Shown here one piece after another: positions 5,953-62,600 of a DNA stretch of 64,000 nt; positions within the stretch are counted from its first letter, which is position 1, and each line of letters starts with the position of its first letter. Under the pieces are notes generated by a model. The model did not search any database. It was given only the letters and a program-made list of their open reading frames with translations, and was not told the origin of the DNA. The translations under genes were made by a program, and so were the position numbers. The stretch lies in NCBI GenBank assembly GCA_035079385.1, contig JAVHKY010000034.1, positions 4,898,001-4,962,000 on the forward strand, given 5' to 3'. Origin of the DNA: Aspidiotus rigidus (lineage: Eukaryota > Arthropoda > Insecta > Hemiptera > Diaspididae).

Positions 5953-8900
5953 GACAATTTATCTCATCATGCTTTGCTGCTCATGTAGCGCTGATATCGA
6001 ACAAGATGGGAGAAAATACATAGACGATTTAAACAAGCTCTACCAAGAAAAAGTGTACGACTTACAGGTGGCCGACTGGAACTACGTAACCAATATAAAT
6101 CAAGAAACACTCGCAAAGAAGGTGAGCATTTCTTGAAAATGAAAATATCTTATAATCTTACTGTCAACAGGTGGTTTCTTTGTCAACATTTTGAGTCATT
6201 TCAATATGGTGATGAACTCCCAAAACTAAAATTAGTGACTATGTGTGATTTCAAAAGCTTCATAATCAAAACTATGGACAATTTATTCCGTGCAGTTAGC
6301 TGAAGATGCAGAGTGGGCCAAGTTTGAGAAAGAGAAATGGCAAGAAACTATCAAATTTCCTTGGCAAACGTTTAAAGATGAAGATTTAAAGAGACAGTTC
6401 CAATTTTACGCTCTTTTAGGAGAATCTGCGTTGCCAGATGATAAAGTTCAAAAGGTATGACTTGAGTAATGATATACGTACTAATATAATTATTACCAGT
6501 TGTATACATATTATATCAAATTGAATACATCCTACAGTATTTTGGAGTAGCTCATTGTTTGAAAATACAGTAATAATTTTCAATATTTCTAGTTCAGAAA
6601 ATCGATCGCTGACATGACGGCTATTTTCAGCACAGCAAAAGTCTGCGACTTCCATAATAAAACCAAATGCGATCTCAGCTTAGATCCAGGTAAGTTGAAT
6701 TGAAAAGTCATCTTTCTTGTTCAGGGAAGACCAATATAGTCTGAGATTTTCAACATAGAATACAATTATTGAGAATTAATACTTTCAGATATTCAACAAA
6801 TATTTGCCACCAGTAGAGACGAGGCCGAACTCAAATATATATGGTTGGAGTGGAGAAAACAAACTGGTCCAAAAATACGCCCAATATACAAAGAATACGT
6901 TACGTTGTTCAATGAAGTCGCTACCCTCAATAGTGCGTGGCTGAAACTCTAAATAACCTAATCAAGGCGTCAATAACAAGTCGTTTCTTTCTGCGGTTAA
7001 TGCAGTCTTTCCAAAACCCGCAAATCGGAGTCCCGAATATGTATCAACCGAATGAGCAGACGGTAGTCGGGAAAATACAATGATGTGATTTACAGACTCC
7101 TAACCTGCTTATTGAAGGACCCTTGCTGAACTGTAAATTGCTAGAGATAGCTTGAGGGGAGATTGTTTAAGAATCTTCTCCATAGTATCTAGAGAATACC
7201 ATTGTGAACCTCAAAAAGTTGCCTTTATCCTTTCAAAAAAATCACATAGTACATCATCACAACAAGCTTCCTCACATTTTCCTGTCTACAAAAGGAAAGA
7301 AGAATACATATACTTCTTAACAATCTCCAAAATTGACTTTGTCTCTTTCAATCATTTGTTTTCTTGCATCAATTCTTGGATTGGAACCTCCAAGTTCCCA
7401 ACACAAATTCATTTCAAATCACGCAGACAAAACCTTTTTTTTTATGATTCTCTTTTCACAACACTGAAGTCGTTTAAACATTCTTCAGATTATACCAGCG
7501 GGGCCGAATATTGGCAGAGACAATACGAAACTCCAGATTTCGCCGATATGTTGAATAAATTATGGGAGCAGCTCAAGCCTCTTTACATGGAATTTCATGC
7601 GTACATGAGGCGGAAACTACGGGAGAAATATGGAGAAGCCATAGTTCCAAAAAGTGGACCTATTCCGGCACATTTATTTGGTGCGTTCATCGGAGAAAGT
7701 TGCTGTGATCGATCCCAGTCTGATCAATTCACCTCAAAACATTTTTGATTAGTTTTCATTTACCTACAATTCATAAAACTCAGCAATATATCGCCGTTTC
7801 CAGGTAATGTGTGGGCACAGGACTGGTCGAACACAGAAGATTTTGTCGAACCATTCAAAAATGCAGACTCTGAAGACGTTACCAAATACCTCACTGAACA
7901 GGTACAGATTGAATGAAAGTTGTGAATTTGAATACGTACTTCCGAGTTTAAATCGCTGTCTCAACTTAGGGTTATACGCCCTTGAAAATGTTCAAACTCG
8001 CCGAAGAATTCTACACATCAATCGACCTCAGCCCGATGACTGACGAATTTTGGAAAAATTCTCTCATCGAGAAGCCAACTGATCGAGAAGTAGATTGCGG
8101 ACCAGCCGCTTGGGACTTCACTCGTAAAAATGATTTCCGGTGAGAATAACAAGTATGATGTACCAAAAAATTCAGGCGTATGCAACAATATGGATGCGTC
8201 TGAAGGCTATAGGAGTAATTCTACAATTTGCGTTACAAGCTGATGACGTAATGAGCTAAAGAATAACCTTGACTTTTTCAGGGTATTGGACAAAAAGGTC
8301 TGAAGTTCCTTCCTTCAGCGCATAAGATTTAAGCCTAGGAGTCATTCTGCAATTTGCCTCCAAGCTAATGACATCATGACCGCGACTTATTTTAGGGTCT
8401 CGATAAAAAAAAGTCTGCAGTTCCTTCCCTAGCACATAAGGTTCAAGGCTAGGGGTCAGTTTGCAGTTTGCGCTTAAGATATTGATGTCATGACCAAAAG
8501 AATGACCTTGACCTATTTTAGAGTCTTGGAAACAAGTTTCAAGCTCCTTCCTCTCGCACGTAAGGTTCAAGGCTATTGGTCATTCTGTAATTTTTGTCAC
8601 AAACTGATGACGTCATGACCCAAAAAGTGACCTTTACCCATTTTAGAGTCTCGGAAACAAGTCTCAAGCTCCTTCCTCTTGCACGTAAGGTTCAAGACTG
8701 GCGGTCATTTATGATTTGCGTCACGAGCTGATGGCGTCATGACCTAAAGAGTAACCTTGACCTACTTCAAAGTCTTAGGAAAAAGAGTGCCTTCCTCTAA
8801 CACATAAGCCAGCTTATTATTAGATAGTTGAACGCTAGAAGTCAACCCCATACACGAGGCTCGATGGTACGCCCTTACTCAACTCCTTCCTTTATGGTAA

Positions 8901-11823
8901 TCTAGAGGATATATATCCCCCTCTATGGATAAATTAAAAAATAGATACAGCTAATGTTTCTCTCGGAAGAGAAAATCTCCAGGAAATTTTTCTAGCAGTC
9001 GATTACAAATAGAAATTAGTTTCAAGCCACTGATAGACACTAGAGGAACAAATTTCACCAATATACCATCAAGTTGGAATTCAAAGAAGGGAACTACCAT
9101 TAAACTAATTGATCAAGATAGGGCGGTTGGTACAAAATCCAATCACCAAAATGGCACCATTAAACTGAGATTCCGTTCAAGCTAGTTTGGAAACCCGGCT
9201 CTAAGTGGTAGACGGAAATACCAACTAATCTCTTAGTCTATTTTCATTGGAATAAAGTCGAAATTCTTTGACCAACCCAACATAAATTTTAATCTCTAAT
9301 AAAAGTCTCAAAGTGAAAAGATAGAAGGAGAATAAAACCTTAGACCATAAAACTCTTTTTGATCAGACCACGAGTATCTCCTAGTCAATTACTGTTCATA
9401 TTCGTTTGTTTTCATAGTATCAAACAATGTACTCAAGTCACCAAAGACGATTTGTTACAAGCTCACCACGAAATGGGTCATGTAGAGTACTACATGCAAT
9501 TCCAAGATTTGCCATATTGTTATAGATATCCAGCCAATGAAGGTAAGATTTTTGTAAGAATTAATGATACATAAGTATATAAGTATACAATGTAAGACTT
9601 TGCTTCACCCTCATTATTGCTTTCATTCACTCGTATGGTTGAACTCAGCTGTATATGTGATGACACAGTCGCTTTTACTAAAACAAACAAATAAATCAAC
9701 CAGAGGATCATATAAGGGCGCAGAGGTGCCACGAATAACGTGATTAACGAGAGTCCATTCACCACAAACTATGCAGACATATTTCTGTTTTATCGCGGAG
9801 ACATCCTACTTTAATGGAGATTATCGCAAACAGATTTCCTCCCAAAACACAACCATTAGTTTCCAAGCGTCATGCAATATCCTTCATTATACTACGGATA
9901 CATTCATTTTCTGTCATTTAATCTTAGCTTTTGACGAATCAATCGGAGATACAATCCTCTTATCGGTAAACCAAGCGCAACATTTCAATAAAATAAAACT
10001 ATTACCGAGCTTCGACACGAGCCAGGAGGCGGACCTCTACAACTTATTCAAATCTGGTTTAGTAAACATCGCTTTTATACCGTTCAGTCTATGGATAGAT
10101 CTATGGAGGTGGAACGTATTCAAAGGAATTTATAAAGAAGAAACCTGGAATACCGAATGGTGGAATTTATGGTTGGAAAATCGTATTGCAAACTTACTAC
10201 GCTACTTAAAAATTTCATTAAATTTTCATTTATATTGTTCGATTCTATCAGTTTGCAATACCAAGGAATGGTGCCGCCAGAGAAACGTTCGGAAAACGAT
10301 TTTGATCCAGCAGCCAAATATCATATTGCAGCGCATTATTCATACATCAGGTGAGCGCTATGACACCGAGCTCTCTCAAATAGACATCAAGACCTCATTC
10401 TCAACTCGTCAGCTTTACTCTGGTTGCAGATATTTCGTTGGTTTTGTAATACAATTCCAGTTTCACGAGGCGTTGTGCATTAGAGCGGGTCAATACGACC
10501 CAAAAAATCCGAATACAGCGCCTCTGCACAAATGCGACATCTATCAAAGCAAAGAAGCTGGAAACCTCTTTAAGTACGTAGGTCTAAAGAATTCCCGATT
10601 TGGGAGAAGGTCTTGAAAGAGGGAGTTGGTAGCTTTCATTGACGAAGTTTGACAAGTAAAACAGAGCATCAACCTAATGTCAAAGAGTAAGAATTGATTA
10701 TCAATTATTCGACCTCAATGACCACCCAGGCTTCCCATTTTCATTATAATCCCTATACTCCATATAAATTCCTATGGGTGTATTTACGGCCAAGACCTTT
10801 GGGAATCATTGATGGTCTTAGATTATCTGTAGTAGTAAAAAGAGTGGGTAGTAAGCTTGTCGATTCGGACCTACCTCAGGGACTACTTCAGCATGCGACT
10901 TGAATAAGGTAAGAGGAGAAGAGGTGAGTTCAACGATTTACTACCAAAAGACCTAGACTACGCGCTCCTAATCCTGATGATCTACGTATATATGGGAGAA
11001 GAGAGCTAGTGAAGATTACAACTTGAACTTACTGCGGAGGGCGGCTCGGAAGAAGCCTGGGCGTGTCTCTGATCCAAATTAACGTAGATGTAAAGTAAGG
11101 ACATAGCTATTGAGGATAACAGTTTTGATTTGGATGATCCTGACGTCGAACTACTGCCACTAAATGACTACCTAAATTAAGAATTTTGGAACAAACTTGA
11201 AAGCCTTAATACGTAAAATATTCCGGAGTGAACTTCCGATCAGAGTTTACTACGCTTCCTGAGACTAAATATTGGAAATTTACTTAGTCATATGCTTGAA
11301 TTAAAGAGTCAAAACTTTACTACATCCCTTCCCTCATAATCAGAAACGAGGAAGAAGTTTTAGAACTCACACTCGCGACAAGACCTGCCTCGTGATTACA
11401 CCCCTAATTATTATTGCAAGTAGAACCCAATATTGCTTCACTAACTGATGCGTAGTTAGAAGAATATATTCAGTAGACTATTCTTATTTCATCAGCAATA
11501 GGCTACAACGAAATATTTTTGTTCTATGAAAACTAAGATGATTACACGTGTGCGAGAAAGGTTCCGAGGAATCAATTATCTGTCCTCTATCCAAGCCACT
11601 TTCACCGAAATGATCCATGGTTCCATGTTTCTTTCCTTCTAGGGAGATGATGAAGCTTGGATCTTCAAAATCGTGGCGAGATGCTTTAGCAGTGATGACT
11701 GGGCAACCGAATATGGATGCTCAATCGGTATTAAGTTACTTCAATCCTCTCTACGAATGGCTAAAAGAGGATAATAAGAAAAACGGCGAACCAGTGGGTT
11801 GGGATGTACCAACCAAACGTTGA
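5953..11823 (+). CDS. secreted single-domain angiotensin-converting enzyme (peptidase family M2), 12 exons
   Basis: Zinc dipeptidyl carboxypeptidase of the ACE family, extracellular. Exons by splice signals and reading frame: 5953-6121, 6296-6454, 6593-6689, 6789-6932, 7489-7680, 7804-7901, 7970-8139, 9418-9542, 9928-10171, 10252-10350, 10430-10573, 11643-11823 (TGA). The product is about 600 residues, the size of insect soluble ACEs, with no C-terminal membrane anchor (ends VGWDVPTKR). The N-terminus [13 protein letters not shown] looks like a signal peptide. The only ATG in frame is at 5969, so either this is the start or a short 5' exon joins the acceptor at 5951-5952. Exon 8 carries HHEMGH and exon 9 FDESIGD, placing the third zinc ligand Glu exactly 24 residues after the second His. 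Exons 10-11 carry KYH and SYIRYF, matching Lys511, His513, Tyr520, Arg522 and Tyr523 of testis ACE. Odd point: the conserved CHASAWDF reads CGPAAWDF, so His353 is Gly and Ala354 is Pro. The other exons are intact. The donor of exon 9 (GTTGGA) is weak. Confidence 0.92.
8205..8830. repeat. about 120-bp tandem repeat inside ACE intron 7, about 5 units
   Basis: Successive diverged units begin near 8214, 8340, 8455, 8578 and 8704, each with GTCATTCTGCAATTTG, then TGACGTCATGACC-like sequence, a CCTTGACCTATTTTAG block and CACATAAGGTTCAAGGCTA. Period about 115-125 bp. Absent from ACE copies 2 and 3, whose intron 7 is deleted just after exon 7. Confidence 0.85.
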
Positions 11824-33895: not shown

Positions 33896-36307
33896 TCATG
33901 ACTGAACCAGCGAGTCATCGAAATGTGAATCATTCTCATAGACTAATTCAATCAATCCCTCCTCAGGAACGTACCTGTTCACCACGGTAATGTCTTTAAT
34001 ATTTCGGTGACGATGAATTTCAATTTCTTCCAAAGCCAAGCGCCTAAAATAAGATTTTTCCCTGTGGAGGAGAACTTCGGATCCCTCTTTGAGGCTATGA
34101 CCGCATTCGATTAAGTGGTCAGCAAACGCCGACTCCCCTACTTTTCTTTTTTCCCATGCTTTTCTATGTTCATCAACTCTAATTTTGAATTGACGGCTAG
34201 TCATCCCTATGTACACACTCGGGCAATCACCACAGGCCACCCTATAAACACCCTCCCTCTCGGCCATCGGAATCGGATCCTTTAACTTGACCAAGAGGCT
34301 CTTCACCGTATTGGTACTATAAAACGCCGGTCGGAAACCAAAGGGACGGAGGACACGGCTCGCCTCCGAAGAAAACTTCCCCAAAAACGGCATCCTAATC
34401 CACCGTTTACGCCTATCAAGATGCAACTGGCGGGGGAGGGAGGTAGTTGAGTCAAGACTTTTTCTTGTAAGTCTCCTACGGACCATGAGGTCAATGTCCA
34501 CTTTCACCTGATTCACTCTAGCCAAGTGCTTTATCGTCACGAGTTCCTTATTAAACGCTACCTCACTCAAGGGGATCTGAGTGAGGCGATGTATTAAACT
34601 ATTAAATGTGGCAACTTTATGGGCAAAAGGTACGAAAGACGACCCGTGGATAGTAATATCGGTCGAAGTACTTTTCCGGTAAATACCGAAATCATGGACA
34701 CCGTCAATGACGGATATGGTTATGTCCAAAAAATTTATTGATGAGCCGCCAACTTCAAGAGTGAACTTGATGGACGGATATAAACTATTTAAATATGCTA
34801 GAAACTCACTAAGGAGCTCCGCGGGACCGGTCCACGCACACAATATGTCATCTACGTACCTATGCCAATAGAAAACGTGATTCAAAAACACCTGGCCCGA
34901 GGAAAACAGGTCGGCCTCAAATTTAGACATAAAGACCTCCGAAATAAGAGAGCCTAAAGGGGAACCAATAGGGATCCCTACCTCCTCAGGGAACTCGAAA
35001 TATTTATCATCGAACTTACAAAAATTAGGTGACCAACAGGCGTTTAAGAGGTCAAAGAATTCACCAAATTCACTATGAGGAGTACCACAGTCTACGAGCA
35101 GTTTGCCTATTTGTTGCATAGTGGTAGCCTTTGGAATGTTAGGAAAAAGCCCAACGACATCAAACGAGCACAGAATTGAACCCGGAGGAAGGATAGTGTC
35201 CTTCAATTTTTCAGCCAGGGCGCTCGAATTCTTTACTGAATAGGGAGACTCAGCCTCCACACGAGCTTTGAACCAACCATCGAGGAACTTAGCGAGGGAG
35301 TATGTAGGGGAGGAAACGAAGGAAACAACCGGCCGCATCGGCACATTTTCTTTGTGTACCTTCGGCAGCCCGTAAAGGAGGGGAGGAGCGGGATTCGGCT
35401 CCAAGATAGCTTTCTTTAGAGATGGGCTCTTAATGATTACCTCACTACCATTAATAAGTTTTCTAGCCTCTTTAACGAATTTTGGAAAATCGAAGAGGGG
35501 GGCCTCCTTAGCCCCACATTGGCCAAGTACCTCGTAAACCTTAGAGACGTAGGAAGCCTTATTCATCACTACGACGGCATTCCCTTTGTCAGCCTTGGTA
35601 ATAACTAGCTTTTCCTCCTTAATCTTCCTCCTCAGACCCACTATCAATTCACTCCCAGCTTCACTTATGCGGGGGAGGGGGGTGTTACGAACAATTTCCG
35701 CACATTTTTTCTGGTTATTTACACCAGGGCCGATTTTTATAGCTAAATCAGCTACAACATTTGCCAACGTCTCCTGATTTTTTAGAGGGGGGAGCCCGAA
35801 CTTCAATCCCTTCTCTAGGAGTGTCATCTCATCACGGTTGAACTCAGTGTTACTGTGATTTATGACACGGGGCTGAAACTGTTGGATAATTCCATCGTCA
35901 CCTAGATCTAATTCGTCATCCCTCATCTTAGAACTTAGGAGGGAGGTAAGCTTCCGATTTTTCTTTTCTTTTAGTTTCAACTCAAATTCACGACAAACCT
36001 CATTTATGGAATGAATAAATGGATCGAACTCACCGTGGTGGAGTAGGCTAGACAGCCGCGAATGCACAAGGAGGTTGAGTCTGGTGGTAACGTTGAGTAA
36101 ACTATGCCACCTCCTCAACTCAGTACGAATCCATTTCTTTGTCATGAAGTTTTCCAATTTCTTGGTGGTTAAAGCACTATCGGAATAAAATTGAAATTTC
36201 ACAAAATTTGGCCTCAGATCGAGTTGGAGGCATTTACGAAGGAACCAAATATGAGACGAATAAGATACCCGTTGGGTTCTGACCGTAAAATTAAAAAACG
36301 TATTCAT
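33896..36307 (-). CDS. Penelope-like retroelement protein: reverse transcriptase plus GIY-YIG endonuclease
   Basis: One uninterrupted frame of 803 residues, the usual size for Penelope-like elements. Basic N-terminal part; RT begins near residue 230 (VITKADKGNAVVV); LPKVHKENVPMRPVVSF at about 314-330; SFDVVGLFPNIP at about 381-392; GIPIGSPLGSLIS at about 444-456; catalytic YVDD at about 485; INFLDI at about 524. A C-terminal GIY-YIG nuclease runs from about residue 687: EGVYRVAC, GDCPSVYIGMTSRQFKIR, then DEHRKAWE and the later His/Glu region. This CxxC next to the GIY-YIG strand is characteristic of the family. It copies its RNA by target-primed reverse transcription using this endonuclease. 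Intact frame suggests a recent insertion that may be active. Partial copies flank it. Confidence 0.96.
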   Translation of the reverse strand: MNTFFNFTVRTQRVSYSSHIWFLRKCLQLDLRPNFVKFQFYSDSALTTKKLENFMTKKWIRTELRRWHSLLNVTTRLNLLVHSRLSSLLHHGEFDPFIHSINEVCREFELKLKEKKNRKLTSLLSSKMRDDELDLGDDGIIQQFQPRVINHSNTEFNRDEMTLLEKGLKFGLPPLKNQETLANVVADLAIKIGPGVNNQKKCAEIVRNTPLPRISEAGSELIVGLRRKIKEEKLVITKADKGNAVVVMNKASYVSKVYEVLGQCGAKEAPLFDFPKFVKEARKLINGSEVIIKSPSLKKAILEPNPAPPLLYGLPKVHKENVPMRPVVSFVSSPTYSLAKFLDGWFKARVEAESPYSVKNSSALAEKLKDTILPPGSILCSFDVVGLFPNIPKATTMQQIGKLLVDCGTPHSEFGEFFDLLNACWSPNFCKFDDKYFEFPEEVGIPIGSPLGSLISEVFMSKFEADLFSSGQVFLNHVFYWHRYVDDILCAWTGPAELLSEFLAYLNSLYPSIKFTLEVGGSSINFLDITISVIDGVHDFGIYRKSTSTDITIHGSSFVPFAHKVATFNSLIHRLTQIPLSEVAFNKELVTIKHLARVNQVKVDIDLMVRRRLTRKSLDSTTSLPRQLHLDRRKRWIRMPFLGKFSSEASRVLRPFGFRPAFYSTNTVKSLLVKLKDPIPMAEREGVYRVACGDCPSVYIGMTSRQFKIRVDEHRKAWEKRKVGESAFADHLIECGHSLKEGSEVLLHREKSYFRRLALEEIEIHRHRNIKDITVVNRYVPEEGLIELVYENDSHFDDSLVQS

Positions 36308-42500: not shown

Positions 42501-43800
42501 CAACAATAGCGTCAAACTGGGTTCAGACTCGTGTGCTCCTAGAATCGTCATCTAACCCTTCTGACGCGAGTAGAAAAAAAAAAATAGTACAATTCTCCGC
42601 GAAATTCGCGAGTTATTTTGACGCGTACTTTGTCATATTTATGCTATTTTTTTGTATTCCACTGGAACTCCTTTTCTTCGCGTCTCCCTTTTTTACCCAA
42701 CTTTTTCCATCTTTTTTTTTCTATTAACCCTCGTTAGTATAGTTCTTCAGTCGTTATCGAATGAAAAATGAAATTTACGACTACTCGAGTGTTCACCGTA
42801 AATGAGCTGCTCGCTCGAAACATTTAATGATCTAAGTTTCTATTTCCTGCGGTAACACAAGAAGGAGGAAACGAGAGAGACATAAGAGGTGGTAATAAAA
42901 ATGAATTTGATACAAATAGCTCTCGATAGCTTGAACAAAAAGAATTAAGTTTAATTTGTTTGATAATTCTCAGAAGTTTTTGAAGCACACTTCTCAAATA
43001 CACCATGAAACTGCGAGAGAGAGAAATGGGTAACTGCGATGAAGTCCACTAAATTCGGAACGTGCCTCGATATTGAGTCCACTCATGAATGATTGATCTC
43101 TAAGAAGCTCCCCATATATGTTTTGTTAATTTTTCAGAAATTAGAACGCCTAAAACGATCGATTCATGAAATCGAAAACGATGACTCCAGGAGATCAATA
43201 CTCTGTGCTATTTTGGTTGGAAAAGTTGAGATTCTGTCAATGGACGCAAATAATGAAGCTCTTGTACGAGAAAACAAAAGTCACCTCCAGAACGTGAGGG
43301 GATTGCACGTTAATTTTGTGCCTTTTTTCAGCGGTATACTAATACTATAAGCTATACTCGGCTTGAATTAGGCTTAGCATGAGATGTACTACATCATACT
43401 CGCCCTCTGCCTTCCTACCGTTGATGGACTTGGAATCCTCGTCTCCGAATCCGAGAGAGTCAGAAAAAACAGTAAGTTACTAATTTGATGACGTTACAGG
43501 CAGGTCCAAGCTGATGACGTTACAACAAATAACATCATGGTTGTTGATGACACGTAACAAATAGGCTTAGGCTGGTTGATATCTTTACTGTGCCTTTACT
43601 CGCTATTGAAAATTATTTCGTCCTGTCTAGTAGGTCTATAATTTATTTAGCTCCGCCAGAACATTTTTATTATTATATGTGACGAGCTCAGACAAACCAT
43701 GCTCCAAGTCGACTTTGTATTGGGTACGCTTTAAATCGTCATCATCAACCTTTAGGATCCTTCATTTCAAACATTATAACCAACATCTTTTGCCTAAAAT
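42500..43800. other. no supported gene
   Basis: AT-rich, with a T/C-rich stretch at 42640-42725 and GACGTTAC words near 43490-43520. Frames up to 85 codons (43093-43350) have no recognised motif. Confidence 0.5.
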
Positions 43801-45035
43801 GGTCCATATATCGAAGCCGGTCCGTTCCGAGAAGAAACAATCCTGGAGCACATTCATAGCGGGTTTGAATTGACGCGTGTCTATCTCCACCATGTGGAGA
43901 GAGATATAAAAAAGCTATCGGGCAATGGTTCCTTCCACTACATCTCTCACCTGAAAACAAACGATTCAATCAACTCTGACCCATTTCAAATTTCTGAATT
44001 TCTAGCAAATCACTATACTTCAGCATCCTCCTACTCTAATTACGACTCCACCTTCCACTCTCCTTGGGGAGATCCTCTCCCCTACAACCAGTGAACTTGA
44101 AACTACAATCAATAAAAGTCTAAGAAACGCCTGTCCTGGACTAGACAACATTCACACAGCCAGGCTAAAAAACCTTCATCCTACCAACTTTCCTATCGCC
44201 TCTCCCTTTTCAACTCCATCTTTGCCCACAGCATCTACCCACATTTTTGGAAAACCGACATCATTCTTCCCATCCTGAAACGTGGCTCAGACCCTCTCCT
44301 CCTGGCATCGTACCGCCCTATAGCATTACCCAGTGTCCTGGGTAAACCATTTCAAAAAATAATCAATAAAAGACTACTTCGGTATCTAGAACCGAATGAC
44401 ATTCTCTCACTTTTTCAATATGGCTTTAGAAAAGGACGAAACACCACTCAATCTCTTGTCGATCTCCAATCGCAAATCAATAACTCTACGCTCAGGAAAT
44501 CCTTTCTTAAGAAGCCTTCCCCTGAATTTGGAAACACCTTATCGCAAACAAACTTTACGAAATTGGCCTTCGAGGCGATCTCCCTAATATTCTCCAGAGT
44601 TTCCTTCATGACAGAACATCAAAAGTACGAATTCAAAATACAACCTCTTCCCCTCTCCCTGTCGAAAACGGTGTGCCCCAGAGAGAAGTACGTAGTGTCT
44701 TCCTCTTCCTCGTAGCCATCAACGACATTACGAAACTTTTTAACCCTCCCATTACCCAACGTCTGTTCGTTGATGATTACAACATTACTATCTGCTCTTC
44801 CAACCCTCAAAGAGCCCACAGACTTCTCCAGGAAACTCTAAACTTAATTACTACCTGGACATCAAAAAACGGCTTCAAATTCTCCACTTCCAAATCACTC
44901 TATCGTCTATTTCCGCACGGAAACTTGGACAGGTCCAGAATTAGCTTCGGTACGAGAGTCCAGAGGTCAAACTTTCTCGAGGGCTCTTCAAGTACAAGAA
45001 AGAAGACCACAGGCTTTCAAGAAATCCAGCCCTGA
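43800..45035 (+). pseudogene. LINE copy 1: linker plus reverse transcriptase, frameshifted
   Basis: Starts within the region after an endonuclease domain (FELTRVYLHHVERDIKKLSG) and continues with FLANHYTSASSYS, then RT motifs across several frames: SYRPIALPSVLGKPFQKIIN (about 44310-44365), QYGFRKGRNTTQSLVDLQSQ (about 44417-44476), and FVDDYNITICSS (FVDD box about 44766-44800). Frameshifts separate the blocks. This is a non-LTR retrotransposon of the I/Jockey-type with C-terminal RNase H (seen downstream). Not functional. Confidence 0.88.
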
Positions 45036-45299
45036 ATTTAGATCCACGCAAATGTCTGTGTCGCTCCTTTGATGACGTCACACCTTCCTCGAGCAGTCTC
45101 TTATCAATAGCCCAGGGATCGGAGTTTGTCCAAGTCCTCTTCGTTTAGTAATAGACAATTTCAAAGCGAAGTTTGATCACAGAATACGAAACAGTAGAAA
45201 AACCAAATCGATTACACATTCGGTCAATCATCGAAAATATTACAACTGAGACTGCGATGAAAGAGACATGAAGAAATATTTAAAAATCAAGGTTGCAAC

Positions 45300-47150
45300 G
45301 TTATGATCAACTTCCAACCCTCAAAAAGCTCATAGACTTCTCCAGGAAACTCTGAACTTAATTACTACCTGGATATCAAAAAATGGCTTCAAATTCTCTA
45401 CCTTCAAAACCTATCTAGTTATCTTCAAATAAAGACGCCCTATCCCCACCCTCCAACCTCTCTTCCTACAAAATTTTGAAATTCCACTCCGAAATTCTGC
45501 TAAACTTCTCGGCCTCCACTTTGATCAAAAACTTACTTGGGAACCCTCATATTAAATTTCTGAAAGCAACATGCATACGAGCCTTAAGCATCATTAAATG
45601 CATCTCACACCCCTCTCAAAAATGCTCCAGAAAACTTCTATTACAACTCTATAAGAGTCTTATTCGATCTAAATTAGATTGTGGAGCGCCAGTACACAAT
45701 TTAGCCAACAAATCTGTCCTCTCATTACGCGACTTTATTTGAACTTCCTCTCTGAGAACGGCCCTAGGAGCCTATCGCACAAGCCCTAAACTCAGTTTAT
45801 GCGCTGAAGCCGCAGAACTTCCTTTCTCCTTTCGTAGACTCATACTAACTTCCAATTTCTTATCCTCTGTTTCTCAATTCCCTGAGCTCCCCATATATAA
45901 GACAATCTTTCTCCAAAACAATGAACCCTTTTTGGCTCACAATAAACATATCCGTCTTCAATTTTACCTCCCTCAATAAGCCTCACAAAGCAAATCCCTT
46001 GCACCCATCTATATTACCTCCCCCCCTTGGACGCTCCCTGAACTAGACATACGTCTTGACCTCACAGAAATCCCCAAATCAAACAACATCATTATCATCC
46101 AAAACATTCGACAGTTGATACAAGACAATCCTGGTTACACAATTTGCTTCTCAGACGGCTCTAAAAAAACGGATGAAACAACTCACACATATTCCATAAA
46201 TGGATGCCTAACTTCCCATCGTATATACGTAATATTGCATCCATATTCACAGCCGAATTGATGGCTATATTCTCCTGCCTTTCCCAACTCTCTCAACTCC
46301 TTCCAAACGGCAAATTTATTTTCCTTACTGACTCATTTTATTCTCTACACTCAATGATGGACATTTACACCACTCACCCCCTCATCCAACATATCCACCT
46401 TTCATCACTCAACCTTAACTCTATCAACATCCAAATCACGTTCATATGGATCCCTCGTCATATCGATCTAACTGATCATGCTGCAATTGATAGAGCCGCC
46501 AAGAACGCCACCTCCTTACCTAGAATAACTGACTACACCCGTCTACCTGTCTCCGATTACAAAAATCACTACCGTTCTCTCATCCTTCAAAAATGGGAAT
46601 CACTCTGGAGACAACAAACTTCTCAGAATTAAACAAACCCCCATACCCTGGTCCACCTCTATTAGAAGTCCTAGACGGGAAAAGTTGTGCTCACCCGTCT
46701 AAGAATTGGTCATACCCGAATCCCACGTTCCTACCTCGTCAACCCTGATCTTCTAGCTCCCCCATCCTGTCCTACTGCAAAGAAGAAACTTCAATAGTCG
46801 AACATTTCTTTCTTTTCCTACTCTCTAGTTGCACCTCTCCCCTCTTCCCTAAATGTTACTTCCTCCCACTCTCAAGCAATAATAAATAATTCGGATACGA
46901 TAACCCTCTCCCTCCAATACATACGCCTCACTCAATTTCATTCTTCCACATGAAAAATTAAAAAAAAAAATTGTAATAAGCTACCAACACACACCTTCTT
47001 CAGTCAGATATTATAAAACTATTCATTAAGATGTACCTACTCTCAATCTATTCTTCTCATCATTTCTAACATGTATATAATCTCGTCGAGCAAATAGCCC
47101 TCAGCGTAGCTAAACTGCTCGGAAAATAAAAATTAAAAAAAAAAAAAAAA
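45300..47150 (+). pseudogene. LINE copy 2: 5'-truncated, RT end plus RNase H and poly(A)
   Basis: 45305-45420 repeats 44798-44915 (TTCTCCAGGAAACTC, ATTACTACCTGGA, TCAAAAAATGGCTTC), then the sequence goes on with a diverged ENLLTWEPHIKFLK-type block and LLLQLYKSLIRSKLDCGAPV (about 45640-45700), and RNase H at 46204-46632 (AELMAIFSCLSQL, FLTDSFYSL, FIWIPRHIDLTDHAAIDRAA). The 3' UTR ends AGCTAAACTGCTCGGAAAAT and a poly(A) tract to about 47150. So two copies of one LINE lie head to tail. Several frameshifts; dead. Confidence 0.85.
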
Positions 47151-48690
47151 GTATCATTATGTGGCATTGAAAATAATGGATGTTTTCAATTCACCATCTC
47201 AAGGCTCTTGTTTTATACAAGAATAATAGCCGTAAAAAGACGAAAAACCTTCTGGTGTATTCTAGCCTCACTGAAAGCACGAGATCAAATTATCACAAGT
47301 ATTACATGTTGAAACATGGTTGAGCTTATTGTAAGAATGTACAAAGCGAAATAACTCGCAGGTAAAGTTTGTATCATGATTTATGAATACCTCGCTTGTT
47401 TCATCTGATCTTCAAAATAACCCATTGCGAAGCTCTTATCACCTCATATTCGTAAACGAACATGAGTAAGAATGGTAACAAAGCAGCCGCATATATTCAT
47501 TTATGAATAAATAGCAAGTGGAAATGAAATTTGAGAACACTTTCGTCCAGAAAATGCTGTCAAATTGTATTTCCACTAGTAACTCGTCGTCCAGTGAAGT
47601 TTCCCTTTTCCAATTAAATGGCAAGTTCGGGAACTCCTACAGGATAAATTTCTACTGCCCTCGCTTGCTGCCGAGAATAGCCTAAATTATCTCCCAAGAA
47701 ACTTAGTTCATCCTTCTCATTCGACTCGTATATAAAAATGCGGTCTGCCGACTTTTCCTGCGAGTCTGACAGCCTCACAATGGTACCTTACAGTAAGAAC
47801 TCGAGTTACATCACTTGTGTGATACTCGCATTCGCGACATATATAATAATGTAAGAACGCTTTACCGTTTCAACAAATTTTCATGTTGGTAGCGTTGCAT
47901 CGATACTCGCAGCCAGGTTTGGTAGTTGCATATTTATAAGATAGAAAATAGTAATAGATAATTGTCAATTGACATCACGTTTTGTGCGTGTATTGAGATA
48001 TCGGGAAAACGGAATGTCATGATAATTATGTGATGAAGGAAAGTCAACTCAAAAAAATTAATGAATTTTCGACATGCCCAGCTATTTATTAGATTTGTTC
48101 GTACTTCTTCCTATTTCAAAAGCTTATGCACACATAAATAGCTTAGAATTCAAAATTTTTTCAATTCCTGAAAGAACCTCGGAAGGACATACGATAGTAA
48201 TATTAATACACTGCTACCATGCTTTAGAGTAGCTTCGCATAATGTTACAACACCGCCCTACACCAACTAATTTCAGTAATATTATTGTGGGAAAAAATCT
48301 CGCAAGTACCAGTCTGAGAATGTTGAAAACGATAATTTATAAAATAAATTTAACACAACTCTCACTCATAAAAACCTATGACCAGTGTCCTCTTTGATTG
48401 TTTCACCCTATACAACTTCAATACTGGCTGTTAATAGAGCGTCCACATTAATTTACATAATACATACGAGGGGTAAACTAACAAAAATGATAATAACAAT
48501 GATTCGAAATTAATATCGCAAATAAGTATGCAAACAGCAGTGCTAAACACCAATGTCCAGAGCGGAGAAAAGGGTGTAAATATTAGTCGTCGTTTGACAA
48601 AAACATATTCGTGCTCGTACGACAACGGCTCTTCTGGGCTCTTCGACTCCGACTGATATCTTCATCAAACAGGGACGACTGTACGAGTAA
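47150..48690. other. no supported gene
   Basis: AT-rich. 47870-47930 (TTGGTAGCGTTGCA ... ACTCGCAG) resembles 61160-61205 in the same sense, so it is part of a dispersed repeat. No coding exon recognised. Confidence 0.5.
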
Positions 48691-51689: not shown

Positions 51690-53204
<1,515 letters not shown>

Positions 53205-54262
53205 CTAACAAAACGAAGAAATTAATCGAGTAAAGTACAAGTAATTGTGATCTGATGTACTAGACTATACTGTGACCTCTATTCCGACTCAAATATTGCG
53301 GAACGCTTCTACTTAGGAAGGAAAGCCTCGAGGAAGATAAGGGAAGCAGAATGTGAGCTGATACTAGACTAGACTATTGTACCCCAATTCAAAATGATAT
53401 GACGGAATCCCTCTGTTGAGAAATGAGAGCCTCAATGGAGGTAAGTAAGGCACAAGTAAAAAATACTCAATAATTATCGACTGAGAATTTACTTCTTTCA
53501 AAGTCTCGACCCCACTTCGATTCTTCGACTCGATGACCTCAAATCCAGGCCAATCAATAATCGATTTCCATTAAACATCTTCGCTTTTTTCATCGACCAA
53601 AAATCGACTGCTCCGCCGGGTTGATTCCAAATCAATTTGTAATTCTCTGGAAATACATACTAGTCGACTTTAAATCGACGTCGACGCACAGTCACCTTTT
53701 CGCAGCATTCTGTCTGTTTGGTGATTTTACTACTCGCAGACGGAATGTGTAGTCATGATTGTATGATGAGGCCTATCGAGTATCTTTCAGGTAATAGTGG
53801 TCGGATCTACGCAATTTCGAAGTCGATTTTTGATCAAAATAAAAACAAGTGCTAGGAGTCGACTCATTTTTGACCTCAATTCTGAGATCTTATCAGATTG
53901 TGCCCTTGACAATGTCGTCGTCCATTGCAAGGAATGACGTATAATCGACCCAACATCGACGTTGATTATGGGTCGACATCAATCTATAATACCGGCAATC
54001 GACTCAATATGTTGAAGTAGATTTTGGGTAAATTAGCGAGCGAAATTGGGCGGAAGTAAATCGACTCGACGATGATTTCAAGTCAACTTTTGATCACAAC
54101 GGCGAGTCGATTTGGAGTCGATATGTTGCTTGGATAAATTACACTGTAACATTCCTTCCTTTATGTAACTATTGTCAATTTTCTCAACATCACGCCTTGA
54201 TTTTTGTGAGTCCCTCTTCTGTAGGGATTTGAACACAAAATTGTCCTCTGATAACGTCACAC
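53205..54262. repeat. TCGA-rich degenerate repeat
   Basis: Between about 53500 and 54125 the words AAATCGACT, GTCGACTT and TCGACTCG recur about 25 times, mostly at 20-40 bp spacing and on both strands. 53205-53500 has nothing recognised; the expected 5' exon of the family A copy 2 gene may lie here or further right. Confidence 0.6.
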
Positions 54263-57147: not shown

Positions 57148-57387
57148 ATGCATTTTGAAGACCTCTACAATAACCATACCTATAAATTTCAAAAATTTAC
57201 GAAGTTGATTAAAATAGAAGAAACATTGTAGCAATTGATTCATGATAGCGCTATCACGATTGATCAGAATGCGCCATATAAGAAAAGGAATTCACGTTCG
57301 ATAAGTACTATCAAGGATTCATTTCACAGTTCATGTGCCTCGAGTCCCGGCCAGATGGTAGTCAGTATTTCAAATCTCCGCGTAGAG

Positions 57388-59604
57388 ATGAAGATTTGGC
57401 GATGCATTTTCTACGTGATCTTCTACTATTCTAGCAATTGTACCGGTCAGTGCACAAAAGAGGAACTATCAACTCTGTTCACAGACGATGTACGCTCTCT
57501 GCTCAAGAATAGATCCACCTACTTCGTAGACAAAACCAAGTACGCGTTGAAGATTCTCAGAATGGCAGACAAGAACTTTCTTCTGACTCGACCAAGAAAA
57601 TTTGGTAAAACGACTTTTCTAAAAACTCTCGCACTAATCTGCGAAGGCGAAAAATCTAGAGAATATTTTGAGAATACACAAATTTACGAAGATCGAAATT
57701 ACGACTGGAAGCAATACGAGGTGGCTTACTTCGATTTTTCCGACATAGGATCCGGAGAAATGGGTGAGTTTGAGAAGAATTTAAAATCTATATTGAAGAG
57801 TATGGGAGCGGATGTCCCACCAAGTACCGACATCGAACGTCAAACTTCCACCTTGATACAAAAGCTGAACAAAGACACAACCGCGGAAAATATTGTCGTA
57901 CTCGTCGACGGATACGACTTTCCAGTTACAAACGTTCTCTACGATTACACCTTACCTGAACAAGTTCGTTACGATATTTCCAACACTAATCGGATGGTCC
58001 TTAAACGATTCTTTAATGCTTTACAGGAGGAGAAAAGTAAACTCAGACTAGTTCTAGTGGCTGGAGTTGTGAAGCTAGCTCAGAACAGTATCTTTCCACA
58101 AGAATTTCACGATATCTCCATGAATCCGGAATTCAATGCGATCGCTGGTTTCACGAGGCACGAACTACACTCGTATTACGACGACTGCTTTGAGGAAATC
58201 GCGAAGGATCAATTCGTTGAGAAAAAAGAGATTGAAAAAGAAGTAGTAGACTACTACGAAGGGTATAAATTTTCGCATGAAACGAATGAAAACGTATACA
58301 ATCCTTATGCCATCCTTAATTGTTTCCGCAAGAAAGGCGACACGCGAGATTACTGGTACGAATCGGGCTCACTAAAATACTTACACAAAGAAATGCAGAA
58401 ACCTGAAAGACTGAATGGACCTGTCTTTGCGGAGACGAAAATCCACCACACGGAACTTCACAGAACGGACGTGATAAATGGTACTTCCATGCATGCCTTG
58501 ATGTATCAGGAAGGGTACTACACTATCCAAAAATATGACAACAGTAGTGGAATGTATTTTCTTAAAGTACCCAACGAAGGTATCCAGACTTCCTTAATCG
58601 AAGACTTGGGCAACAAGAACATAAGTTTCAAATCTCATGTGCCGATATACAAACGCGCTTGGGACTTCCTCGATGAACTCTCTCAAGAAAATGTGGAGGA
58701 GAATGTACGAAATTTCGTCGAGGTAATAGACAGGCATTGTATGAACGAGTTGGGTTTCCAAGCCATGAGGAGAACAGACTTTTGCGAGATGATGGAATGT
58801 ATCCTGCACGAGGCAGGTCTGTTCAATATACACACAACTGCCCGTCAATGGCAAACGAACAACGATGCTTGGGTAGACCTGAGAGTAGAAACTTACAACA
58901 CTGTAATGCAGATACAAGTTGATAAAAATCAATCAAACTGGGACACGGTGAAACAATCGAAAATATGCCGAGAACCGGGTACTTCTAACACGAGAAGGTG
59001 TTCTCTTTTTTTAGCGCTGAATTTCTCTCCTGCGAATCAAACCTTCCTTCCCGTAAAAGATTATCACTGGATATTATACGATCGATTTGCAAAAAACTCG
59101 ACATTACTTCCTGAATTTAGCGTGAGTAATCGTACGAGGAAACTTAAAAAACCGCCGAAATTGCCAAGGACTAACCGTACGATGAATCTGAGGAAGGGGG
59201 AGGAAAGAATGAATGATCGAACAAATAAATTCAACAGATGGCACCGATCGAAAGATAATAGCACGACAAATTCTGGAAAGATACACCAAAGAAAAAGAGT
59301 TAGTCAAACAAAAAATTTCAGAGGAGCACAACAAGGAAACGTTAATCGCACAATGAAGCCCAAGACTGATAATCGCAGGATGAATTCTGGAAAAACGCAA
59401 CAAAAAAAGGAAGTTAGTCGAGCAACGAATTTCAAAGAAGCACAAAAAGGAAATATTAATCGTACAATGAAACACAAGACTGATAATCGGAGGATGAATT
59501 ATGGAAAGACGCAACAGAGAAAAAAAGTTGGCCAAGCAACGAATTTCAGAGGAGCACGAAAAGGGAACGATAGTCCTAAGAGGAAATCAGATAAGCCCAA
59601 GTAA
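57388..59604 (+). CDS. secreted AAA-ATPase-like protein with PD-(D/E)XK-like domain and basic repeat tail
   Basis: Intronless, 738 residues. ATG at 57388 chosen because it begins a signal peptide (MKIWRCIFYVIFYY, then Cys/Thr-rich cleavage region); the frame is open further upstream but without a better ATG context. Residues about 25-330 match the AAA-ATPase-like domain (Pfam PF09820 type): RSTYFVDKT, Walker A RPRKFGKTT (68-76), AYFDFS, Walker B VVLVDGYD (171-178), AGFTRHEL, YYEGYKF and VYNPYAIL. Usual Walker B is (I/V)DEYD, so the catalytic Glu is Gly175 here. Residues about 460-530 sit where the family has its PD-(D/E)XK nuclease (PF08011 type); AWVDLRVE keeps an Asp but ExK is replaced by QIQ. 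Residues about 628-738 are three 38-residue Lys/Arg/Asn/Gln-rich repeats (NSGKTQQKKEVSRATNF). The domain is known mainly from bacteria, fungi and some metazoans; probably gained by transfer, then converted to an exported, possibly non-catalytic protein. Confidence 0.85.
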   Translation: MKIWRCIFYVIFYYSSNCTGQCTKEELSTLFTDDVRSLLKNRSTYFVDKTKYALKILRMADKNFLLTRPRKFGKTTFLKTLALICEGEKSREYFENTQIYEDRNYDWKQYEVAYFDFSDIGSGEMGEFEKNLKSILKSMGADVPPSTDIERQTSTLIQKLNKDTTAENIVVLVDGYDFPVTNVLYDYTLPEQVRYDISNTNRMVLKRFFNALQEEKSKLRLVLVAGVVKLAQNSIFPQEFHDISMNPEFNAIAGFTRHELHSYYDDCFEEIAKDQFVEKKEIEKEVVDYYEGYKFSHETNENVYNPYAILNCFRKKGDTRDYWYESGSLKYLHKEMQKPERLNGPVFAETKIHHTELHRTDVINGTSMHALMYQEGYYTIQKYDNSSGMYFLKVPNEGIQTSLIEDLGNKNISFKSHVPIYKRAWDFLDELSQENVEENVRNFVEVIDRHCMNELGFQAMRRTDFCEMMECILHEAGLFNIHTTARQWQTNNDAWVDLRVETYNTVMQIQVDKNQSNWDTVKQSKICREPGTSNTRRCSLFLALNFSPANQTFLPVKDYHWILYDRFAKNSTLLPEFSVSNRTRKLKKPPKLPRTNRTMNLRKGEERMNDRTNKFNRWHRSKDNSTTNSGKIHQRKRVSQTKNFRGAQQGNVNRTMKPKTDNRRMNSGKTQQKKEVSRATNFKEAQKGNINRTMKHKTDNRRMNYGKTQQRKKVGQATNFRGARKGNDSPKRKSDKPK
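59269..59604 (+). repeat. 114-bp coding tandem repeat, about 3 units
   Basis: Encodes the 38-residue basic repeats of the AAA-like protein (residues about 628-665, 666-703, 704-738). Units share GGAAA(G/A)A(C/T)(G/A)CAACA, ACGAATTTC and ACTGATAATCG words; the last is truncated and followed by PKRKSDKPK. Confidence 0.9.
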
Positions 59605-62600
59605 AACGATTTGAAGAAGGGATTCTCAGCTTCTCCAGGGGATATAAAATTTGCAACTTGAGGATGAAGTACTTGTTTGATAAGGAGTTATCTGGGGGAA
59701 TAACATCCAATGTCGGCCGTCCAGTTGTGGTTTAAGGGTCTCTCATTTATTTTGGATCCTGGAACCAATTCCGAATTTTTTTTTGAGTTGTGTATATTAT
59801 TATTATCACAAGAGGTGGACTGCAAGGATTTGATCATTGAGTGATATAGATTTGAAGAAAGTTCTGCCTTCTAAGCTATACATAGGGGAGGAGGGACTAG
59901 AAACATTCTGACCATCGAGTAAAAGAATGGTTCAACAACGAGAATTTTTGAAGATGACCATAAATGTGCACCAGAGATTCAGGAAGAGTTTCAATTACTC
60001 AACGATGTACGACAAGAATGGGAATTCTTGATAAAGTTTTGCTAATAAGCTAAATAGATATAATAAGGCCCGCAAAGAACAAAATGTTTAACTTCGAAGC
60101 AATAAAGTCAGCAACACTTTGAGGAATTCTAATTTTTTCCAAATTATCGATCTCAACTAATGAAAACCAATCCTTATCGATCATTGAAATCGACAAATTC
60201 TACAAAGAATCATCATTTTTTCAAGCTTCCATCAATTGATGTAGGTAAGTTACCTAATAAAAAAAAGGCCGAGCTCGATGAAATTTCTACAAAATTTATT
60301 AATTGGTGTCTTTTTGATACTGCTCAAATTTAGTCATTTAAAAAAAAAAAAAAAACCATACTAATTAGATCAGCCAACGATAAAATTTTGCCAATTCTAC
60401 CAACTCCAGCATCAAACCTTCTTCTGGATACAGGAAACCCTTTTTCCTCCAGCTCTTGATTTACTTTATCTTTCTTGAAACGCATACTTAGCCTAAAAAA
60501 ATATTGCAAGACGAGAAATAGGTCCCATGCTTCAGCAAGCTCAAGTTTTCTCATAATTTAGCCTAGACAAATTTCTTTGTACTCCAGATCTAACCTGAAG
60601 CAATTCCTATAATCTAACTTGAACAACTTCTTTCATCAGTGGTGGATTTATGCATGGCCCAAGGCGGCAAAATTTCTGAAGTGTGAAAGCGCGGCAATTT
60701 TGCAGTTCAATCTGCCCTTTCACACTAGGAAATGTAAAAAGTATTTTCTCCGAATGAATGAAGGAATAAATAAATTGGAAAATTGAACTCGTAATAGATA
60801 AACCTCATCATTGCAAGATTTAACGTGAACCCCTATTTTATGCAACTTAATGTGACCTAACGTAGCTTAATGACGTCATCAAAGTCGGACACGAACCTTT
60901 CTTGAGGATGCCCTCTTTCTGTGCAATATAACCCAACCTAACTAAGGTTAAGACGTCATTTAAGTCGGGCGCGGGAGCGAACGTTTTCTGAGGATGTGCC
61001 CCTCCCTCCCAAAACACAGATAGCGGGTTTCCCGCTAAAAAAAGTGAGAAAATACGAGTAAAGGAAATAAAAAGAAAGGCAAATTTAATTTCATCATACT
61101 TCAAGTACGTCCCAAAAGTTCCAGATCTCTTACACTAATATACGTTGAAACGCACGCGTTCACACGACCATTTTATGTCGGTAGCGTTGCACTAAACTCG
61201 CAGATAGAATTACAAGTTGTGAGAATCTCAAGTAGCTAAGCGTGATAGGGCCGATGCTTACTGATTTGCCCAGTGACCAAGTTGCAGTTCGGCGTTCCAG
61301 TCATCTGTGGGTCACCATGTAGCAGCGTGAGAAAGGGTTCGCATGACAAACGTGTGGGTCCTACAGAAATACTCATATTTGCCTAGGCTATAACGCTATC
61401 ACAGTAGTCGATTATGGTCAACCAGGATCAGGAGATCACAGGCAGAATTGCCTTTTTAGCGTAATCAACGCTAGGTTCGTATAATTTTGCCCTGTGTAGC
61501 ATGGAAAAAATGCGTGCTGCATAGTTAGCATTATTTAGTAATTCTAGCATCAGTGCAACATAATTTTAGAATGATTTTTTTGATTTATTTGCTCCTTACC
61601 GCTTCAAAGCCACTCCACTCTATTCTCGGGTCCCGAAAAATACTCATGGAGTAAAGAAAAGAATTGCAAAGGCCGCCCTTTTCTTCACTCTCTGAGTATA
61701 TTTATCGGTATGTCGGGTCGTAACCTACAGAATCGCATCCACTCGATTTACTCCCGGGTTGTTTCATACGACTCCGGAGCGATTCTCTCAGTACAAGTTT
61801 GTTAGAACTGAAGCAGATTGCAGACGTTGCTACACTAATTATTGAGCTCCTGGGGAGGAAGGACATTTGAAGAGTATGCCTCCTTTGAGGTGAGTTTGAT
61901 CAATACGCTACAATGTTATATGCACTAAGGCTCAGAAATAAACATTTTTCCAAGTCACGCCTACAGACCCGAACGTAAATCTACAAGATTAGAGGAAAGT
62001 CAACAAGGGTTTAATTTCTTCTTAATCCCTGGTTTGCGGTCGTATGGACGACCGGACACTCAAACACCAGGCCTCAAATCCAGAAAATACGACAGGGGTC
62101 AAGAAAGGAACAATCGTAGTCGCAGCCTGAAGTTTAAAGTAGGCTCATGTATTGCATCAACGTCACTGATTATTATTTTCGCATACGATTTTCAGACTCC
62201 AAATAATATCAAAGAATAATTTCTAGTCTCTGATTACTGCAGACACACAAGATGACTAGAGACCGCCAAAACAGGAGCGTTGAATATGATTTTTGAAGAC
62301 TAGAGGACTTTTTATAAGACAAAGTATTTCAAGAGACCTTCATCTCCGCGACTGGCGGTTATTTGTGCTTTGGAATCTTTTGAACTGATGTATAATAAAA
62401 ACAATTAGAATATTTTCCACCCCAAAATCAAAATTAGACAAGCAACAGCTCGAAAATAATAATGTTTATCTCTCGTATGGATCAATCCTACTTTCTGGAC
62501 ATTTTTCTTCAAGAAACATCTGTGTATATTCTAAATCTGTATCAATTGATGAAGTCACCTCAGGAAGGCTTCCAACATTTTCAGACGTCCTCAGCTTAGC

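Follow-up and report, generated by a model that had tools for sequence, protein, structure and literature searches.

A transferred DUF1703-type gene in a probably exported, nuclease-dead form within a very large gene family of Aspidiotus rigidus

A gene located at positions 57388..59604 (+ strand) was analyzed within a 64,000-nucleotide stretch of the Aspidiotus rigidus genome (hereafter the window; assembly GCA_035079385.1, contig JAVHKY010000034.1, positions 4,898,001 to 4,962,000). Based on all analyses, it was concluded that this kind of transferred gene is already known, that its form here is unusual, being probably exported and nuclease-dead, and that it belongs to a very large family. 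We proposed, at a probability of roughly 0.5, that a DUF1703 protein of the Crinkler/Medea1 type was acquired horizontally and turned into an exported nuclease-dead switch. The evidence comprised the architecture of the protein, the states of its motifs, its chromosomal setting, its bacterial kin, the size of the family and the recurrent losses of active sites.

A single open reading frame (ORF) occupied positions 57235-59604, in which the ATG at 57388 and the stop at 59604 delimited 738 codons without interruption. The whole coding sequence (738 amino acids, one exon) was assigned from the ORF call, the PF09820 match and the genome self match; an alternative in-frame ATG at 57355..57357 (+), 11 codons upstream, would add 11 amino acids. 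A chance origin of 738 stop-free codons at 39% GC would be far too unlikely. The PF09820 (AAA-ATPase_like) domain of Pfam matched residues 39-236 (57502..58095, +) with an E-value of 7.9e-32 and 111.1 bits against a curated cut-off of 26.1. The intronless frame with a P-loop, described in an earlier reading made before any database search (the sequence-only reading), was thereby confirmed. The search of the window protein against NCBIfam led nowhere, one PDB sequence search was without matches and the other gave three weak ones only (E 0.24-0.75). PADLOC yielded no match for the window protein and weak matches for three of its kin, and the BFVD comparison returned mostly generic ATPases.

The motifs were located by alignment to paralogs and bacterial kin. 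Walker A (RPRKFGKTT, 57589..57615, +) was intact, including the P-loop Lys. In Walker B (VLVDGYD, 57898..57918, +) the catalytic Glu of active PF09820 members was replaced by Gly. A degenerate PD-(D/E)XK-like core was assigned to residues 462-546 (58771..59025, +), where Asp 497 (VDLR, 58876..58878, +) was retained and ExK was replaced by QIQ (residues 508-510, 58909..58917, +), leaving the nuclease triad incomplete; an alternative alignment places the retained Asp at D493 instead. When both ExK residues are Gln, the usual metal site of the PD-(D/E)XK superfamily is broken. Since neither PF08011 (PDDEXK_9) nor any other PD-(D/E)XK domain of Pfam matched the window protein at E-values up to 1, the nuclease assignment was based on the alignment to kin and on the predicted order of secondary structure elements (alpha-beta-beta-beta-alpha-beta, modeled at a low predicted local distance difference test score, pLDDT).

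Motif states were tallied in 51 rows including the window protein, among which a few close pairs remained; these were left after 68 family loci (L001-L068) had been fetched and 18 had been dropped (L010-L022, which are 13 copies from a single subclade, and five rows that were truncated or close). The Walker B position held Glu in 40 rows, Asn in six, Asp in four and Gly in one, and the nuclease triad was intact in 30 (L030, which lacks the region, was scored as not intact). The two substitutions, both of which the sequence-only reading had named, were borne out by the alignments and are real departures from kin. The family-invariant positions D48, K49, R68, P69, F72, G73, K74, Y176, D177 and G254 were all kept.

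Active-site losses recurred in the family. Both motifs were intact in 25 of the 51 rows and both were altered in six (L004, L036, L037, L055, L062 and the window protein). On the family tree at least 10 changes of the nuclease triad and at least six of the Walker B Glu were required, in either direction; for these counts the intact state was assigned to five bacterial rows, whose motifs were also inspected. The dN/dS ratio (nonsynonymous to synonymous substitution rates) was 0.20-0.84 in all paralog pairs whose dS was 0.1 or more and went up to 1.74 in those with dS below 0.1. These values were simple pairwise counts (48 pairs in all) without a significance test, from pairs pre-filtered by shared 5-mers and with eight close copies omitted. 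The family thus looks maintained by selection, the pairwise test covering the paralogs and not the window gene. A bacterial member can lose both active sites too: P0001, a protein from a metagenome-assembled genome (MAG) of Prevotellaceae, had Gly in place of the Walker B Glu (VDGYD) and of the ExK Glu (FGFK). The Gly common to P0001 and the window protein was read as probable convergence, because P0001 joined Parabacteroides in both trees described below.

The family was found to be very large. In a PF09820 search of the genome all 150 scored candidates (the best of 385 seen) exceeded the cut-off, were stop-free within the match and were spread over 46 of 102 contigs. A search with the window protein, in which the best 61 of 354 candidates were scored, added six places, giving a family of at least 156. 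The other 60 scored candidates were 26-34% identical to the window protein, and no close copy was among them. PF08011 matched only 14 places genome-wide (22 candidates), which puts the nuclease region of most family members outside the reach of this profile. In Pfam searches of single members its match exceeded the cut-off in L005, L084 and L072 and fell below it in L009. The isolated conversion implied by the sequence-only reading was therefore not upheld, the gene being one of many, a large number of them with signal-like N-termini.

A signal-peptide-like N-terminus of ~21 residues (57388..57450, +) was recognized by a hydrophobicity rule, which required nine residues without polar ones, a mean hydrophobicity of at least 1.0 and a Met located 45 or more residues ahead of the P-loop. 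The window protein scored 1.42; it failed a stricter Kyte-Doolittle rule (cut 2.0) because of its tyrosines, and a signal peptide is considered likely, not certain. The rule was passed by 26 of the 51 insect rows, window included, and 39 had a suitable upstream Met; shuffled upstream stretches of those 39 passed 314 times out of 1950. Plainly hydrophobic N-termini, such as those of L040 and L067, were overlooked by the rule. An upstream Met was absent in 12 rows, and since acceptor-like sites preceded the domain in five of 11 inspected loci (10 of these and L002), some members probably have a split first exon. None of 15 bacterial rows passed (a sixteenth, without a P-loop match, was dropped), a control that was partly built in, as 11 of them start 41-44 residues before the P-loop and were unable to pass. 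According to the available passages of the Cardinium cCpun study (PMC6387759), signal peptides are predicted for 10 of its 25 DUF1703 paralogs. The signal may therefore predate the transfer and have been present in the donor already. Hence, of the eukaryotic signal peptide previously claimed, the signal-like start was retained as likely, and its invention in the insect was weakened by the partly built-in control and the cCpun paralogs. The window protein also held 14 N-glycosylation sequons against a shuffle mean of 7.3, a count reached in 18 of 2000 shuffles.

The structure of residues 26-417 (57463..58638, +) was predicted to be a STAND-type ATPase with a helical and winged-helix region, similar to the switch ATPases of the NLR/CED-4 type (2qen, CED-4 and plant NLRs). 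The nucleotide-binding, helical and winged-helix arrangement of STAND proteins was present in the model. A predicted STAND/NLR switch thus took the place of the generic AAA-ATPase label given earlier; Foldseek taken alone put AAA+/ORC first for the ATPase part. Since a switch is predicted, the protein is not necessarily inert without the Walker B Glu, and a nucleotide-bound or slow switch may result. The PD-(D/E)XK core was well modeled in a Cardinium relative, the C-terminal domain of which matched the Wolbachia CinB nuclease in a fold comparison.

The C-terminal 148 residues (59158..59601, +) formed a basic tail with an isoelectric point of 11.9. It contained three in-frame tandem repeats of 114 nucleotides (38 amino acids; 59254..59595, +), in agreement with the triplicated basic tail reported from the sequence. 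The second and third units were 79% and 71% like the first, with dN/dS between units of 0.42-0.52 on ~22 synonymous sites. The tail ended with PKRKSDKPK, which we take to resemble a nuclear localization signal.

The best match of the window protein in a large protein database was a Prevotellaceae MAG protein (25% identity over 68%). Among plasmid records the nearest were Cardinium (33.3% over 50%) and then Simkania (28.5% over 72%), the latter being also nearest to paralog L041. The window gene grouped with Cardinium in two trees (69 and 64 rows), with support of 90 and 81 in the approximate likelihood ratio test (SH-aLRT), and in both it was found near Simkania and apart from free-living bacteria. 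The Cardinium placement is a lead, because no starred set contained the window gene and its branch was long (1.65 and 1.75). The horizontal gain suggested by the sequence-only reading was supported by these kin. A single insect clade was not rejected (p-AU 0.212 in the approximately unbiased test), and the starred branches of the 64-row tree forced at least two changes, the long branches there meeting the outgroup; one insect transfer or several would be compatible with the trees. Cardinium relatives occur in named genomes, e.g. cBtQ1 of Bemisia tabaci.

The gene lay 4.955 Mb into contig C34, which is 7.38 Mb long (window at 4.898-4.962 Mb) and belongs to the 441-Mb genome. Three of the window's four other long ORFs had Pfam assignments (ACE, FLYWCH/MULE and reverse transcriptase) and the fourth had no match. 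Contamination, which the sequence-only reading had wished to see checked, is very unlikely given this position deep in the contig, these neighbors and a genome-wide repeat 0.8 kb downstream, none of which gave a sign of it. Cargo of a mobile element was likewise considered and is unsupported: in the flank searched (downstream from 59700), positions 59700-60415 had no second copy in a genome search that skips very common words. Within the 1.2 kb searched, recurrences started only at 60416, as short dispersed repeats; the one at 60416-60576 (~160 bp) had copies with a likeness of ~67-84% at many genomic sites.

Other observations were made in the window and the genome. An 803-amino-acid ORF at 33896-36307 had sub-threshold matches to RVT_1 and GIY-YIG (Pfam), a pairing also found in Penelope-like elements. 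A 231-amino-acid ORF at 52516-53211 (-) had no Pfam match. GC skew was strong at 43000-48000, down to -0.43, and no tandem repeats were found at 42.5-50 kb. Another subfamily comprised 15 dispersed copies (L009-L023), which lay in multi-kilobase stretches that closely resemble one another; L009 was 99.6% identical to L010 over 8.8 kb and 91.7% to L023 over 4.9 kb. Tandem repeats of 483 bp were present at both ends of some of the pieces read, and the pattern suggests a mobile or segmentally duplicated unit. Near that subclade, L014 contained an endonuclease VII-like ORF (526-813, -; PHROGs E 2.7e-5) and an ORF without a Pfam match (8624-8956, +), which reminded us of the end of a Polinton-type polymerase. 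Member L005 (1267-3426) combined intact motifs with C-terminal C2H2-like cysteines and histidines, as judged by eye. A single bioB was found (G000:C3:2601486-2602400, 28-Mb contig, open frame of 325 amino acids, 404 bits against a cut-off of 225). The bioB gene is mostly lacking in animals and has been taken up by sap-feeding Hemiptera, and this copy is likely another transferred gene. Contigs C70, C87, C89 and C97 carried tandem mitochondrial units of ~13.38 kb (~12.7% GC in the stretches read, a low value that fits scale insects), and the 65 COX1 matches of the genome were mostly broken nuclear pieces.

It was proposed that a chromosomal DUF1703 member, a STAND-type ATPase joined to a PD-(D/E)XK nuclease, was acquired from intracellular bacteria of the Cardinium/Simkania type. 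The family would have multiplied in the insect to more than 150 places, with signal peptides gained there or brought by the donor. The window member lost the nuclease Glu and Lys as well as the Walker B Glu, and with its Walker A it would have kept nucleotide binding. As an exported nuclease-dead switch it would bind nucleotide without normal turnover, and the degenerate nuclease fold and basic tail would bind nucleic acid or a partner protein. It may act outside the cell or in a symbiont-bearing compartment, restraining or regulating symbionts or other intruders. Export, binding without catalysis and the target are what we infer here. Of the exported pseudo-enzyme of the sequence-only reading, the loss of nuclease residues (QIQ) stood and export is likely from the signal-like start, and the ATPase part need not be inert.

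Several points weigh against this proposal. The nuclease region was modeled at a pLDDT of ~45 and has no Pfam match, and, with PF08011 at so few genome places, a single alignment underlies the tallies of nuclease states. The predicted signal peptide is moderate in strength, the Cardinium placement lies on a long branch outside all starred sets, and the idea that the tail binds nucleic acid is guessed from its charge. The analogy to the bacteriome is drawn from another insect group and other genes, and the two altered motifs could equally reflect a decaying gene.

A tentative alternative, rather unlikely in our estimate, is a salivary effector that the insect releases into the plant for action inside plant cells, with the basic tail serving nuclear or nucleic-acid targeting in the manner of Crinklers. 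The signal-like N-terminus, the excess of sequons, the large and quickly diverging family and a host that looks like a sap feeder (from its bioB) are consistent with it, but psyllid relatives are bacteriome-enriched in the excerpts available (PMC10558732). It is also unlikely that a selfish, symbiont-borne STAND-nuclease of the Medea1/Crinkler class was turned into an exported arsenal of well over 150 genes, where nuclease-live members would target symbionts, plant cells or rival alleles and dead ones, which evolved repeatedly and include the window protein, would be decoys, antidotes or binding-only regulators. The odds are lower for a selfish toxin-antidote family like Tribolium Medea1, with nuclease-intact toxins and nuclease-dead members, such as the window protein, as antidote, decoy or suppressor. 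Nuclease loss is indeed recurrent, the Cardinium relative has a CinB-like C-terminal fold, one subfamily has closely similar dispersed copies, and the architecture class is shared with Medea1 in partial published accounts (PMC6387759, PMC11342252). However, no close nuclease-intact partner was seen among the best 61 of 354 matches, and the downstream flank is not a repeated element.

The absence of a close paralog, the long branch and the several changed motifs might also indicate a relic, both active sites having changed since nothing maintains the gene. We regard this as very improbable: 738 codons are intact despite deep divergence, the family-invariant positions are kept, and the repeat units of the tail show the low dN/dS given above, on few synonymous sites. 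No greater probability is given to a protein that is still an enzyme and turns over ATP or cuts DNA by means of other residues. The window protein retains Walker A and the Asp of both Walker B and the nuclease site, and motif variants are common in the family, but the Gln residues at both ExK positions break the usual metal site.

The exported nuclease-dead switch can be set beside several known systems, for which the literature is cited from available passages. The DUF1703 proteins of Cardinium and Simkania are the nearest named sequences and have the same domain order (PF09820 and PF08011). They are bacterial, their motifs were intact in four of four checked, unlike those of the window protein, and no basic repeat tail was seen in the aligned proteins; a signal-like extension was lacking in all 15 bacterial rows, 11 of which begin too near the P-loop. 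In cCpun the family is expanded with putative secretion, and Medea is mentioned (PMC6387759). PF09820 also occurs in phage-defence ATPases such as RdrA (PMC10952713).

Transferred genes of bacterial origin with the same family name are described in sap-feeding Hemiptera, and their likeness to the window gene is by description only. In whiteflies 17 new AAA-ATPase-like candidates were reported, with Psylloidea and Coccoidea cases cited (PMC11800479), the name appears in whitefly gene lists (PMC6582559), and one such gene was up in virus-carrying whiteflies (PMC6457337). AAA-ATPase-like transferred genes were up-regulated in the bacteriome of two psyllids (PMC10558732) and are found in psyllid assemblies (PMC12203342). 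Psyllids have a handful of them, and the passages available mention neither export nor active-site loss (PMC11800479, PMC10558732, PMC12203342).

Tribolium Medea1, linked to maternal-effect killing, is by description of the same architecture class as the window protein; it is given as CR-NTPase8 with CR-REase7 (PMC11342252), and the Medea1 factor is mentioned as an insect-genome homolog of DUF1703 (PMC6387759). The Crinkler link, which the sequence-only reading had offered as an analogy only, thereby has more behind it in print. Crinkler (CR) effectors are secreted proteins. They share the pairing of a P-loop and a restriction endonuclease (REase) fold with the window protein. The CinB nuclease of CifB matches the C-terminal fold of the Cardinium relative. 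CifB has a partner, CifA, and dual nuclease domains; one nuclease-like region was seen in the window protein, where no search was aimed at a second one or at a partner gene. The kinship is disputed, the AAA domain of DUF1703 being said to be absent from cytoplasmic incompatibility (CI)-like toxins (PMC6387759) and an AAA-ATPase-like domain being reported in CI toxins (PMC12445526). The CidB pseudonuclease illustrates that dead PD-(D/E)XK folds can matter (PMC7465683). The likeness to STAND/NLR switch ATPases is confined to the predicted fold of residues 26-417; unlike those proteins, the window protein has its ATPase joined to a degenerate nuclease, and a repeat sensor region was not seen.

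One architecture therefore joins three subjects, namely the reproductive toxins of symbionts, the selfish element Medea and the Crinkler-type effectors. No tested function of the DUF1703 genes transferred to sap-feeding insects appears in the literature passages; with more than 150 places, signal-like starts in half of the sample and a series from intact to changed active sites, function becomes testable here. It may be asked which members reside in the bacteriome, in saliva or in the germline, and whether the live ones are opposed by the dead. In the listed titles and abstract openings of the open-licence literature, neither an exported insect family this large nor its active-site losses were found. 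Such transferred genes are already known from whiteflies, psyllids and a coccoid, and what is new in A. rigidus is the scale of the family and the recurrence of active-site losses.
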